Below are positions 23,645 through 29,059 of a stretch of 64,000 bases of DNA, one piece after another (the stretch's first letter is position 1; the number at the start of each line of letters is the position of its first letter). The notes beneath the pieces were generated by a model that did no database searches, had not been told where the DNA came from, and saw nothing but the letters and a program-made list of their open reading frames with translations. This stretch comes from Candidatus Poribacteria bacterium (GTDB taxonomy: Bacteria > Poribacteria > WGA-4E > WGA-3G): positions 1 through 64,000 of the forward strand of contig JAPPII010000011.1 in NCBI GenBank assembly GCA_028820845.1. The letters run 5' to 3'. Position numbers and translations under genes: made by a program.

Positions 23645-23673
23645 TTGACACCAACCCTTCTTTTTGATAAAAT
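23645..23673 (+). promoter_or_regulatory. Sigma70-type promoter of the redoxin gene
   Basis: TTGACA (23645-23650), 17-nt spacer, TAAAAT (23668-23673). The expected transcription start is about 23680, the A of the ATG, so the mRNA may be leaderless; there is no ribosome-binding site before this ATG. Confidence 0.6.
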
Positions 23674-23679
23674 GCCTCC

Positions 23680-24174
23680 ATGCCACGAAAAAACAAAATT
23701 CTCAGTATCGGTGATACCGCACCACTCTTTACGCTCCCCTCGCATCAGCGAGTGGAGATTTCGCTTGAAGTGTATCGGGACGTTCAGAACGTCGTTTTAA
23801 CCTTCTTTAGGGGGACATGGTGACCGAACAGCCGCCGCCAGTTGGCGACGGGGCAGGAATATATGGAGGCATACTCGGAATGGACGGCTACGCCGCTCGC
23901 GATTGCTGGACAGTGGCCCCGTGAACTCCGGGGTTATGCCGATAAAAATCGTATTACATTCCCGCTGTTGGTTGACAAGACGCGAGAGGTCATCAAAAGT
24001 TATGGAGTCTATCACTGGCTGAGTCTGGAGGCTTACAACATCGCCCGTCCCGCAACGTTTGTCATTGACAAAGCCGGGGTTATTCAATATATGTATATCG
24101 GTTCGCACCAGTTCGATCTCGTCCCGCAAGAAGAAATTCTTCAGTGTCTAAAAGAGATAACGGTCAGCCGTTAG
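23680..24174 (+). CDS. AhpC/TSA-type redoxin with in-frame TGA at the active-site cysteine: candidate selenoprotein
   Basis: Reading from ATG 23680, one frame runs to TAG 24172-24174 with a single TGA at 23821-23823. Before it, LSIGDTAPLFTLPSHQRVEI and VVLTFFRGTW are the N-terminal half of a peroxiredoxin-like thioredoxin fold; after it come PNSRRQLATGQ, FPLLVDKTREVIKSYGVY and ARPATFVIDKAGVIQYMY. The TGA falls exactly where related proteins have the first Cys of W-C-P-x-C, so the product would be W-U-P-N-S with selenocysteine; the second Cys is Ser. A stem-loop with a short apical loop starts 9 nt after the TGA. The frame is unbroken on both sides, which argues against an assembly indel. The alternative is a nonsense mutation in a decaying gene. 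Length with Sec: 164 residues. Confidence 0.65.
23832..23851 (+). promoter_or_regulatory. SECIS-like stem-loop just after the in-frame TGA
   Basis: CCGCCGCC (23832-23839) pairs with GGCGACGG (23844-23851) except one C/A mismatch; apical loop AGTT carries a G in its second position. The loop is 16-17 nt after the TGA, inside the range reported for bacterial SECIS elements (stem-loop inside the reading frame, small loop with an early G). Seen in sequence; function is inferred. Confidence 0.45.
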
Positions 24175-24386: not shown

Positions 24387-24812
24387 GTGAGGATCCCGCG
24401 AAAATGGTTCCGTCTCTTTGTATGGACTTTTTCAGGTTTGGTAATTCTCAATGTTTCAGCAGAGCTTTTATTGGATTGGACTTGGAAGGCTTTGGGTGAA
24501 ACGATATTAACCCGCATGGCGGTTCTAATGACGCTCATAGTCGGTTGGTTTTTCATTCTATCCCATGTAGTGGAGGGCATCATGTTAGGATATGCGAAAC
24601 TCTATAGAGACAGGATTCGTGCCGAGGGCGTAGAAATTGGTAAAGCCCAAGGTCTTGAACAAGGCAGAGCTGAAGGCAGAGCTGAAGGCATCAGACAAGC
24701 ATATCAGGAAATCGCTGATTGGAACAAGCGTCGACTCGAAGCGGAAGCCAAAGGCGTCCCATTCGACGAGCCGCCTCCTATAGGAAACGGCAGTAACACG
24801 GATTTATCCTGA
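24387..24812 (+). CDS. Small membrane protein with charged repeat tail
   Basis: 141 residues from GTG 24387. Two hydrophobic segments (LFVWTFSGLVILNVSAELLL and MAVLMTLIVGWFFILSHVV) are followed by a hydrophilic helix containing GLEQGRAEGRAEGIRQAY, a short Glu/Arg/Gly repeat likely to form a coiled coil, and a Pro/Asn-rich end. Function unknown. No strong ribosome-binding site is seen. It precedes ribD closely and may share its transcript. Confidence 0.65.
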   Translation: MRIPRKWFRLFVWTFSGLVILNVSAELLLDWTWKALGETILTRMAVLMTLIVGWFFILSHVVEGIMLGYAKLYRDRIRAEGVEIGKAQGLEQGRAEGRAEGIRQAYQEIADWNKRRLEAEAKGVPFDEPPPIGNGSNTDLS

Positions 24813-24877
24813 CAATGGAACTCAACACGAATGGGGGTCCGAGCCCGCACGCCAGCGGCGTGTTATGTCTATTCTTC

Positions 24878-25981
24878 ATGGATGAAGCACATAGAACCTT
24901 TATGAAACGCGCCTTGAATTTAGCGCGTCGGGGCAAAGGACGCACAAGTCCAAATCCGCTCGTCGGTGCGGTTGTTGTGAAAGCCGGACGGGTCGTCGGT
25001 GAAGGGTATCATCAAAAAGCCGGAACCCCACACGCCGAGGTCCACGCCTTGAACGCCGCAGGCGAAAACGCCAGAGGTGCGACGCTTTATGTGAACCTTG
25101 AACCGTGTTGCCATTGGGGACGAACACCGCCTTGCACGGAGGCAGTCCTTCAAGCAGGTGTTGCTGAAGTCTATGTTGCAGAGGTTGATCCGAATCCGAG
25201 TGTCGCAGGCAACGGGATCCGTCAGTTGCAAGAGGCGGGGATTCGTGTCCATGTCGGCACGTGTGCTGAAGAAGCAGCGCAGTTGAATGAGGTCCATAGG
25301 AAATACATTCAGACCGGCAAGCCGTTTGTTATTTTGAAAACCGCCATGAGCCTTGACGGGAAAATCGCCACTGCCTCAGGCGAATCGCAGTGGATTACCT
25401 CTGAGGGATCACGACAGCGCGGACATGAAATTCGCGACGCAGTAGATGCTATACTCGTCGGCAAAGGGACAGTTGACCGCGATAATCCGGCATTGACGAC
25501 GCGGCTTCAGGATAGAGAAGGACAGGACGCAACTCGAATTGTGTTAGATTCACACGGGAGAACCTCCACGGACGCACGCATCTTCAACCCTGCGAGCAGT
25601 GCAGGAGTTATTATTGCTGTCACACCGGACGCACCCGCGAAGAACATCGGTGCTCTTGAAAAGGTGGGGGCAGAAGTAATAATCGTTCCAGAGGAAAAGG
25701 GTAAAGTGTGTTTCGAGCGTTTGATGGAGATATTGGGTGCGCGTGAGATAACAAGCGTCTTGGTGGAAGGTGGTGGGGAAGTCAATGCCTCGGCGATAGC
25801 CACAGGCGTTGTAGATAAGATGATGTGTTTTATCGCACCGAAATTGATTGGTGGGCGGGATGCCCCTGGACCTATCGGCGGTGAAGGGCTTGCAAGTTTA
25901 AAGGATGTACCGCATTTGAAACGCGTCAGTATCACACCTATTTCTGATGCTGCCGACTTTCTCATTGAGGGGTATCTGTAG
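24878..25981 (+). CDS. ribD: Riboflavin biosynthesis protein RibD (deaminase/reductase)
   Basis: Bifunctional diaminohydroxyphosphoribosylaminopyrimidine deaminase and 5-amino-6-(5-phosphoribosylamino)uracil reductase, about 367 residues, two middle steps of riboflavin synthesis. Zinc site of the deaminase: HAEVHAL and PCCHWGRTPPC; SPNPLVGAVVV precedes it. The reductase half shows KTAMSLDGKIAT, SQWITS, DAILVGKGTVDRDNP and VLVEGGGEVN. The ATG at 24878 is chosen because RibD proteins start about ten residues before the first helix (MDEAHRTFMKRALNLA); an upstream ATG at 24815 is possible. One nucleotide separates it from ribE. Confidence 0.95.
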   Translation: MDEAHRTFMKRALNLARRGKGRTSPNPLVGAVVVKAGRVVGEGYHQKAGTPHAEVHALNAAGENARGATLYVNLEPCCHWGRTPPCTEAVLQAGVAEVYVAEVDPNPSVAGNGIRQLQEAGIRVHVGTCAEEAAQLNEVHRKYIQTGKPFVILKTAMSLDGKIATASGESQWITSEGSRQRGHEIRDAVDAILVGKGTVDRDNPALTTRLQDREGQDATRIVLDSHGRTSTDARIFNPASSAGVIIAVTPDAPAKNIGALEKVGAEVIIVPEEKGKVCFERLMEILGAREITSVLVEGGGEVNASAIATGVVDKMMCFIAPKLIGGRDAPGPIGGEGLASLKDVPHLKRVSITPISDAADFLIEGYL

Positions 25982-25982
25982 C

Positions 25983-26654
25983 ATGTTTACCGGGATCGTT
26001 GAAGAACTTGGAACCGTTGGAAGTATCCAACGCAAATCGGAAGGTGCGATCCTTGAAATTCAGGCGAGTGAAGTCCTCACGGATGCGAAAGTCGGCGACA
26101 GTATTGCCGTTGACGGTGCTTGTCTTACGATCGTTTCTCTAACATCGGAGGCGTTCGCTGGGGATATATCTGCTGAAACCTTACGCCGGACGACGTTAGG
26201 TGAGCGGAAAGTCGGTGAACAGGTTAACTTGGAACGTTCACTCCGGTTAAGTGACAGACTGGGTGGTCATCTGGTCCTTGGACACGTGGATGAAGTGGCG
26301 ACAATCTGCGCTTGGAAAGACGAGGGCGATGCCTCTCTAATGCGGGTAACGATAAGCGATAATACCAGACGCTACATCACTTACAAAGGTTCTGTCACCG
26401 TTGACGGTATCAGTTTAACTGTGTCAGATGTTTCTAAAGATTCCTTTGAAGTCGCTTTGATTCCGCATACGAAGGCGGTCACGACTTTGGATATGAAACG
26501 GACTGGGACCAGGGTCAATCTTGAAGTCGATCTTATTGCGCGTTATATTGAAACACTTCTGAAAAATAGTGACGAGGTGTCGGGTTGGACTGAGCAAACC
26601 GGTTCCGAGACCCTCAATTTGAGTTTTTTAGCGAAACACGGCTATATGGATTGA
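25983..26654 (+). CDS. ribE: Riboflavin synthase alpha chain
   Basis: Final enzyme of riboflavin synthesis, dismutating two lumazines. 223 residues with two homologous lumazine-binding barrels: the first from MFTGIVEELGTV through DSIAVDGACLTI and FAGDISAETL, the second from LGGHLVLGHVDEVATI through GSVTVDGISLTVSDV and VALIPHT. The ATG is 1 nt after the ribD stop, so the two are cotranslated; an upstream in-frame start inside ribD would add residues that do not fit the family. Also called ribC in some species. Confidence 0.96.
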   Translation: MFTGIVEELGTVGSIQRKSEGAILEIQASEVLTDAKVGDSIAVDGACLTIVSLTSEAFAGDISAETLRRTTLGERKVGEQVNLERSLRLSDRLGGHLVLGHVDEVATICAWKDEGDASLMRVTISDNTRRYITYKGSVTVDGISLTVSDVSKDSFEVALIPHTKAVTTLDMKRTGTRVNLEVDLIARYIETLLKNSDEVSGWTEQTGSETLNLSFLAKHGYMD

Positions 26655-26721
26655 TCATCGGCTGTCAGTTTTTGGTTAAGCGTCTGATGTTATAGCAGGC
26701 AACTTTTTTATGATAAAAGCC

Positions 26722-26878
26722 TTTCATAACTCAAAGGCGGTTGGACTTAACCGAAAACCCGGGGAATGCCATGCGGCATTCATACCGTTGATTTGTGAAA
26801 CGAAATTGTGAGTGATCAGCGAACAATTTGTCTGAGCTTTACATTGTGGAACGGTGACCAGATTTAATAATTAAAAAT
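26722..26878 (+). promoter_or_regulatory. Leader of ribBA, similar to the ribH leader
   Basis: The 5' part has TTTCATAAC-TCAAAG-GCGGTT...CTTAACC-GAAAACC, and the last 33 nt before the ATG (26846-26878) match the ribH leader with two differences, including the identical 20-mer GGAACGGTGACCAGATTTAA. An extra stem (GAATGCC/GGCATTC, about 26763-26777) sits in the middle. The classic FMN riboswitch consensus is not visible. It may be a regulatory RNA or a dispersed repeat. Confidence 0.5.
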
Positions 26879-28111
26879 ATGTCAAATACATTTAACACCA
26901 TTCCTGAAGCACTCTCTGCAATCCAAAATGGGGAACTGATTGTCGTTGTTGATGAACCCGATCGCGAGAACGAAGGCGATCTCATCATGGCGGCTGAAAA
27001 GGTGACGGCAAAGACTATCAATTTCATGGCGAAATATGGTCGTGGCTTGATATGTTTGCCTACCTGTTCAGAGAGGCTTGCCGAACTCGAACTCTACCCC
27101 ATGGTCGCATCGAATACCGCACAGATGCAAACCGCCTTCACTGTCACAATCGACGCGAAAGAGGTCACGACAGGTATCTCGGCGCAAGAGCGCGCCTATA
27201 CCATCCGCAAATTCATTGACCCAAACGCTACACCCTCAGACTTTGTCCGACCCGGACATATCTTCCCATTGGAAGCGAAACCGGGTGGCGTGCTCCGGCG
27301 CGCCGGTCATACAGAAGCCACTGTCGATTTGGCACGTATGGCAGGACTCTATCCCGCAGGCGTTCTCTGTGAAATACTCAACGAGGACGGAACTATGGCA
27401 CGCGTGCCTGAGTTGCTGGAGTTTGCTGCACAACACCGACTGAAAATTATTACAATTTCCGATTTGATTGCATATCGCCGTCAGACAGAAACCTTGATTC
27501 GGCGAGTTGCGACTGCAGATATTCCAACAGCACACGGTGAATTCAAACTTTACGCCTACGAAAGCACAGATACCGACGGCGAGAGTGTTGAAACCGATAA
27601 AACCCATATCGCACTCACAAAGGGCGATGTTGCCAACGCAGCACCTATCTTGGTCCGTGTCCATTCCCAATGCCTGACGGGTGATGTCTTTGGATCCCTC
27701 AGATGCGATTGTGGTGAGCAGCTTGAGATCGCCTTGCAAAATATTGAGAAAGAGGGCAGGGGTGTGCTCGTCTATATGCGCCAGGAAGGCAGAGGCATGG
27801 GACTCAAAGGGAAACTCCGCGCCTATCAGCTTCAGGACAGCGATGGATTGGACACCGTTGAAGCCAACGAACACCTCGGTTTTCCCGCCGATCTCCGAGA
27901 TTACGGCATCGGGGCGCAGATACTCGCCGACTTGGGGGTTCGGAAAATGCGATTAATGACGAACAACCCCCAGAAAGTTAGAGGGTTAGATGGACATGGA
28001 CTTGAAATTGTCGAACGCGTTCCTTTACAAACCGAGCCGAACCCCTTTAACCGCCGATATTTACAGACGAAACGTTCTAAACTTGGACACCTCCTCTTAG
28101 ACGAGGAATAA
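26879..28111 (+). CDS. ribBA: Bifunctional DHBP synthase / GTP cyclohydrolase II
   Basis: 410 residues supplying both branches of riboflavin synthesis. The N-terminal RibB half makes 3,4-dihydroxy-2-butanone 4-phosphate: acidic loop [30 protein letters not shown] and [17 protein letters not shown]. The C-terminal RibA half hydrolyses [25 protein letters not shown] gives the zinc cysteines, and [21 protein letters not shown] and LTNNP-type [11 protein letters not shown] complete it. Lies 224 nt after ribE with its own leader, so it may be regulated separately from ribD-ribE. Confidence 0.97.
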
Positions 28112-28197
28112 ATTTCTGTCTGGGATCAGGCATCCAGATTCCTGCTGGCTTGTTGTTCCCGAAAATTGTTCAAACTTTGGTGAATTGTTAGGAAACT

Positions 28198-28280
28198 TTT
28201 CATAACCCAGATGGGTTCAACTTAACCAGAAACCACCGTGAAACGAAGTGGAACGGTGACCAGATTTAATAGTTAAAAAA
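28198..28280 (+). promoter_or_regulatory. Leader of ribH, similar to the ribBA leader
   Basis: TTTCATAAC, a small stem CCCAGATGGG, CTTAACC-AGAAACC, then CCAC/GTGG closing CGTGAAACGAA, then GGAACGGTGACCAGATTTAA and TAGTTAAAA up to the ATG. It matches the ribBA leader in the same order, without the insert. Possible shared cis-regulatory RNA. Confidence 0.5.
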
Positions 28281-28766
28281 ATGGCAAATGTTTATGAAGG
28301 ACATCTTCTCGGCGAAGGTCTCACATTCGGGATTGTTGTAAGCCGATTCAATAGTTTTGTTACCGAAAAACTCCTTGGCGGTGCGTTGGATGCCCTAAAG
28401 CGACACGGCGTTGACTTGGATGAGGTCGATGTTTTTTGGACATCGGGTGCTTTTGAGATTCCCGCAATCGCCAAACGTCTTGCAGGCAGTGAAAAGTATG
28501 ATGCCGTTCTCTGCTTGGGTGCCGTCATCCGAGGCGCGACACCCCATTTTGACTACGTTGCTGCTGAGAGTGCGAAGGGAATTGCCCAAGCATCTGTCAA
28601 TACAGACACGCCAGTCATCTACGGGGTCATCACCACAGATACAATAGAGCAGGCACTTGAACGCGCTGGAATAAAGGCAGGAAACAAAGGCTTTGAAGCG
28701 GCTGTCGCTGGGATTGAGACGGCGAATCTTTACAGAACGATTGATAAAGCCCTGAATAATAGATAG
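28281..28766 (+). CDS. ribH: 6,7-dimethyl-8-ribityllumazine synthase
   Basis: Lumazine synthase, 161 residues, joining the ribBA and ribD products before riboflavin synthase. Motifs: [39 protein letters not shown] (with the catalytic His of the RGxTxHxDYV segment), [11 protein letters not shown] and AGNKGFEAA. It normally forms an icosahedral or pentameric assembly. The stop codon TAG straddles the left end of a MITE-like element: the T is host sequence and AG belongs to the element's terminal repeat. Confidence 0.96.
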
Positions 28767-29009
28767 GACTTACGCATTCCAGTGGTAGGTGCGGTTTGTA
28801 ACCGTACCTTATGCATTCCAGTGGTAGGTGCGGTTTGTAACCGTACCTTACGCATTCCAGTGGTAGGTGCGGTTTGTAACCGTACCTTATGTATTCCAGT
28901 GGTAGGTGCGGTTTGTAACCGCACCTTATGTATTCCAGTGGTAGGTGCGGTTTGTAACCGCACCGGCTGCGTCGGAATGAGTGAATTTCTTTGATTCTGC
29001 GTAAGTCCT
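28765..29009. mobile_element. MITE-like element carrying a hairpin array
   Basis: Terminal inverted repeats AGGACTTACGCA (28765-28776) and TGCGTAAGTCCT (28998-29009) are perfect over 12 bp. The 7-mer AATAGAT directly precedes the left end (28758-28764) and recurs 1 nt after the right end (29011-29017), as expected for a target duplication. No transposase is inside; the interior is mostly the 39-bp array. Confidence 0.7.
28773..28967. repeat. Tandem array, five 39-bp units, each a hairpin
   Basis: The motif GTGGTAGGTGCGGTTTGTAA starts at 28782, 28821, 28860, 28899 and 28938, exactly 39 nt apart. Each unit contains GGTGCGGTT-TGT-AACCGCACC or its AACCGTACC variant, so each folds alone. Units differ at 1-3 positions. 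39 is a multiple of three, so ORFs cross the array without stops; these are not genes. Confidence 0.93.
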
Positions 29010-29059
29010 GAATAGATAAACATAAGTTCAATACGGGAGCGTTTATTTTTTTAAATTTC

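Follow-up and report, generated by a model that had tools for sequence, protein, structure and literature searches.

In the window, a stretch of 64,000 nucleotides from the genome of a sponge-associated Candidatus Poribacteria bacterium, an in-frame TGA at 23821-23823 was, with little room for doubt on sequence grounds, assigned as a selenocysteine codon in a full-length protein of the AhpC/TSA fold. The first-pass annotation had described one frame broken by a single TGA, with redoxin sequence on both sides. We found the ATG (23680), the TGA and the TAG (ending at 24174) as described, and reading the frame showed that the TGA, in the context FFRGTW-U-PNSRRQL, was the lone internal stop. The read-through product matched PF00578 over its full length (E = 3.7e-25, 88.7 bits versus a curated cut-off of 26). 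A standard six-frame listing retained only 23842-24174 with a TTG start, exactly the piece that a gene caller had been expected to keep. The features of the locus are listed in Table 1.

Table 1. Features of the predicted selenoprotein locus, in window coordinates
Feature	Position	Strand	Basis or remark
-35 hexamer TTGACA	23645..23650	+	Motif scan; conserved position in 53/65 orthologues
-10 hexamer TAAAAT, TG before it	23668..23673	+	6 nt from ATG; +1 predicted at the A of ATG
Predicted selenoprotein coding sequence	23680..24174	+	164 residues, AhpC/TSA (PF00578) peroxiredoxin-like, one Sec
UGA codon, predicted selenocysteine 48 (FRGTW-U-PNS)	23821..23823	+	TGA conserved; TGT in L109
Ser51 codon, second position of UxxS	23830..23832	+	Cys in CxxC homologues; peroxidatic Cys position in AhpE
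Predicted bacterial SECIS stem-loop	23832..23851	+	Apical loop AGUU 23840-23843
Arg123 codon (NIARP-TFVID)	24046..24048	+	Invariant in orthologue alignment A1
ribD-ribE-ribBA-ribH, conserved downstream neighbourhood	24815..28766	+	Family matches

The orthologue was present in 67 of the 85 phylum genomes searched, and 66 of these 67 kept the TGA. Exactly one TGA was found in the orthologues of 35/36 genus genomes (source genome counted) and also in families of the order that are further removed, and the search of the 85 genomes returned no orthologue from order family f3 or from other families of the class. The 102 records fetched were reduced to 65 distinct coding sequences, one of them cut by a contig end. 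All 65 carried FRGTW-U-PNS with the TGA at codon 48, none had a further internal stop in codons 1-160, and dN/dS was ~0.08-0.10 upstream and downstream of the TGA alike, so that the pattern was far beyond chance and both halves of the gene were under strong purifying selection. Orthologues keeping the TGA had been proposed as a check and random additional stops in relatives as a refutation; the former were found and the latter did not occur. A pseudogene or a sequencing error, with the TGA being a real stop or a base-call error, was thereby rejected. A recent nonsense mutation would indeed leave one in-frame stop, but the identical TGA recurred in the 66 independently assembled genomes, and selection after it equalled that before it with no stops added, which left this explanation a negligible probability.

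The source genome, a 5.7 Mb draft, contained selA (519 bits), selB (351 bits, above cut-off), selD (363 bits) and selC, the last as a tRNA-Sec with anticodon UCA directly adjoining selB. All four genes that the first-pass annotation proposed to look for were therefore present, and the absence of selenocysteine machinery that would have spoken against its reading was not observed. SelA and SelB have been reported to be enriched in sponge symbionts (PMC5649159). The selD gene (L042, G000:C123:5786-6709) itself carried an in-frame TGA near its N-terminus, in the context KCAG-U-ASK, which was taken as the active-site Cys position, so SelD is itself a probable selenoprotein. Since several genes of this genome have an in-frame TGA, we weighed a genome-wide reassignment of TGA, for example to Trp or Gly, instead of selenocysteine. 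However, the in-frame TGAs read in detail all lay at redox Cys positions, the genome encodes a dedicated tRNA-Sec(UCA) with SelA, SelB and SelD, and the residue naturally replacing the TGA was Cys. Moreover, TGA terminated confident genes, namely ribE and 25 orthologues of the selenoprotein gene, and on this ground reassignment was rejected as having scarcely any chance of being correct.

At least 8 further thioredoxin-fold matches (PF00578, PF13098) with one TGA were seen in the source genome, on contigs C5, C22, C30, C31, C35 and C99, and in those read in detail the TGA was at the redox position; the full selenoproteome is probably larger than these matches. A separate read-through frame (L152, G000:C5:38650-39468, minus strand) had two peroxiredoxin domains in tandem with a separate TGA in each, at a TxxU-like catalytic position (FTGGU and FGTGU), and could possibly encode a double-selenocysteine fused peroxiredoxin.

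Cys equivalents at the TGA codon were found at two distances. In one close orthologue (L109, 5001-5494; 77% identical), TGT replaced TGA and the Ser three residues on was retained; its genome kept selB and tRNA-Sec, and the stem-loop sequence was still largely intact. The sole phylum orthologue without TGA came from genome G074, probably the same genome as that of L109. Since G073, a genus-mate of G074, retained the TGA, the switch to TGT seems to be a point replacement of recent date. Among Armatimonadota and Chloroflexi, distant homologues (L139-L142) had CxxC at the aligned site in single continuous frames. With TGT in L109 and CxxC in these homologues, the expected alignment of TGA with Cys was borne out, and by sequence alignment the predicted Sec48 corresponds to the first Cys of CxxC, with Ser51 standing in for the second.

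A SECIS-type stem-loop with loop AGTT had been placed just downstream of the TGA, and it was present and satisfied the published constraints on bSECIS elements, which are a loop of 3-9 nt, a stem of 4-16 bp, a G in the first two loop positions, a distance of 16-37 nt from the UGA and an MFE of <= -7.5 kcal/mol (PMC13188914). In the window gene, the stem-loop had 8 stem positions with one C/A mismatch, the loop AGUU and 16 nt from UGA to loop, and the 39 nt after the UGA folded at -12.9 kcal/mol. Over the family the stem was uneven, with the -7.5 kcal/mol limit reached in 48/65 orthologues. The mean predicted probability of exact loop closure was 0.29 versus 0.10 in synonymous recodings, and exceeded 0.5 in only 17/65. 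Since the folding z-score after the UGA against synonymous recoding was modest (mean -0.95), folding energy alone was weak evidence. The synonymous freeze of the loop codons was stronger evidence: the loop Gln codon was CAG in 65/65, as against 208 CAG and 206 CAA (~50% CAG) elsewhere in the gene, and the loop Leu codon was TTG or TTA in 65/65, as against 25% TTR and three quarters CTN elsewhere. A shift of the helix that gives a 5-nt loop is possible in the 7 sequences with TTA. Stem pair 18-25 was partly compensating (C-G, T-G, T-A, A-T), yet mismatched in 19/58 sequences. Most of the TGA-bearing paralogous redoxins read in the phylum had a different and longer hairpin, of the CAGCUC-GGN-GAGCUG type, and no Rfam element was found in the 64-kb window.

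The stem-loop also bears on whether the locus is made in two functional pieces, with a leader peptide of 47 residues, a protein of 110 residues started separately at TTG 23842, and the UGA as a regulated stop. A standard caller does report the second piece only. However, the UGA and the flanking FRGTW and PNSRRQL form the active-site loop of one fold, the CxxC homologues run uninterrupted through this site, and the TTG start is a codon of the SECIS loop that is not constant, being TTA in the sequences mentioned above. The split gene was accordingly rejected as very improbable. For selenocysteine insertion, SelB and tRNA-Sec(UCA) would decode the UGA at 23821 under the guidance of the downstream stem-loop.

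The AlphaFold model of the protein (pLDDT 87) showed a thioredoxin fold in which Sec48 immediately precedes helix 49-60, so that it would lie at the N-terminal end of the first helix following the central strand. Its best PDB matches were Bcp4 and the one-Cys peroxiredoxin AhpE (TM 0.87-0.89). In the alignment with AhpE, the peroxidatic Cys fell on Ser51, away from Sec48. The claim that the TGA lies at the catalytic Cys was thus upheld for the first Cys of the CxxC Prx-like homologues, but not for the peroxidatic Cys of AhpE and true peroxiredoxins. When compared with the TxxC/TxxU motif of typical peroxiredoxins, the protein had Ser51 at the last motif position; when compared with Prx-like UxxC, it lacked a resolving Cys at the second position, since UPNS was found in 65/65 distinct sequences, as the proposed UxxS had implied. 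No other Cys was conserved, and 64/102 records had no Cys at all in codons 1-160. We therefore regard the protein, from its sequence, as a putative one-Sec UxxS enzyme without a conserved resolving Cys. The Sec48 selenolate would reduce hydroperoxides or disulfides with the help of Ser51, of the helix dipole and of Arg123, probably the counterpart of the active-site Arg conserved in peroxiredoxins, and would pass to a selenenic acid or a mixed selenosulfide. With Ser in place of Cys51 and no further conserved Cys in the protein, its resolution would have to fall to thioredoxin or a small thiol acting from outside, as it does in one-Cys peroxiredoxins or in glutathione peroxidases. The enzyme may be a peroxidase or a thiol-disulfide oxidoreductase, as the sequence is compatible with either role.

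Selenoprotein tables list Prx (TxxU) and the Prx-like thiol:disulfide oxidoreductases (PF00578, UxxC/UxxU; PMC1088965, PMC9312934, PMC13188914). They also place under PF13911/cd02970 a UxxS family of the AhpC/TSA type, known from the symbiont of a gutless worm (PMC9312934, PMC13188914). The poribacterial protein shares with the Prx-like UxxC/UxxU selenoproteins, which are found in marine microbes, the PF00578 family and a predicted Sec that is first in a CxxC-like motif after the central strand. It departs from them in having Ser at the second position without exception and in lacking any other conserved Cys, and an intramolecular selenenylsulfide is therefore not expected. The UxxS motif, the AhpC/TSA type and the symbiont source are shared with the selenoprotein of the Olavius algarvensis Delta 1 symbiont, whereas the two differ in family, a comparison made by family assignment only: the window protein gave E = 0.19 (12.5 bits, cut-off 27) against PF13911 and ~1e-25 against PF00578. 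The poribacterial family thus fell outside PF13911, the best of 15 members reaching E 0.00088. Selenoprotein Prx (TxxU) has the same fold and belongs to the same Pfam family; there Sec replaces the peroxidatic Cys, the last of TxxC, whereas the poribacterial Sec lies three residues earlier and Ser occupies that position. The closest fold class was that of M. tuberculosis AhpE (PDB 1xvw, 4x1u; TM 0.87, ~28% identity), which likewise has a single redox residue, but its catalytic Cys aligns with Ser51 rather than Sec48. Since UxxS AhpC/TSA selenoproteins are already listed, the poribacterial protein, as predicted here, is an order-wide addition to a recorded kind. Our literature search found no paper describing poribacterial selenoproteins. 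Standard annotation would shorten the gene to 110 residues or label it a pseudogene, so that annotations of sponge symbionts probably lack a conserved redox enzyme. The UxxS motif offers a clean natural test of how selenocysteine works when no resolving Cys is present, and the variant with TGT in place of TGA gives a natural pair for comparing Sec with Cys.

The promoter that had been said to set the transcription start at the ATG was found as TTGACA-17-TAAAAT (23645-23673). TTGACA-17-TANNNT stood 6 or 7 nt upstream of the ATG in 53/65 distinct orthologues, and no Shine-Dalgarno-like motif was seen in any of the 65; the promoter geometry was not found in order families f2 and f4. Synonymous variation was low at codons 2, 5, 8 and 12, which fits a constrained 5' end. 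Because the conserved promoter puts the predicted start on the ATG, the mRNA is probably leaderless, and a strong promoter starting transcription there would have the protein made from a leaderless message. Among 406 crude ORF starts, leaderless promoters in general gave no clear signal in the genomes. We judge it an even chance that the Poribacteria possess, order-wide, a peroxiredoxin-like family that almost always uses Sec, has one selenol, the UxxS motif and no conserved Cys, and is expressed from a leaderless mRNA. If so, the ribosomes inserting selenocysteine would have begun on a message lacking a 5' leader, only 47 codons ahead of the UGA.

Downstream, ribD-ribE-ribBA-ribH came after the selenoprotein gene in most loci, and ribD was present in 46/58 flank loci. 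Inspection of the 3' flanks by eye indicated that ribD appears to have its own promoter, and since it seems separately promoted, the link of the selenoprotein gene with the rib genes is only suggestive. Between the two genes in the window lay a small membrane-anchored ORF (24387-24812); none of the related loci had a match to it in their flanks, and it looks like a lineage-specific insertion. Further on, between ribH and hisH, short tandem repeats occupied 28730-29031, the reverse strand reading as repeated GYKPHLPLECIR.
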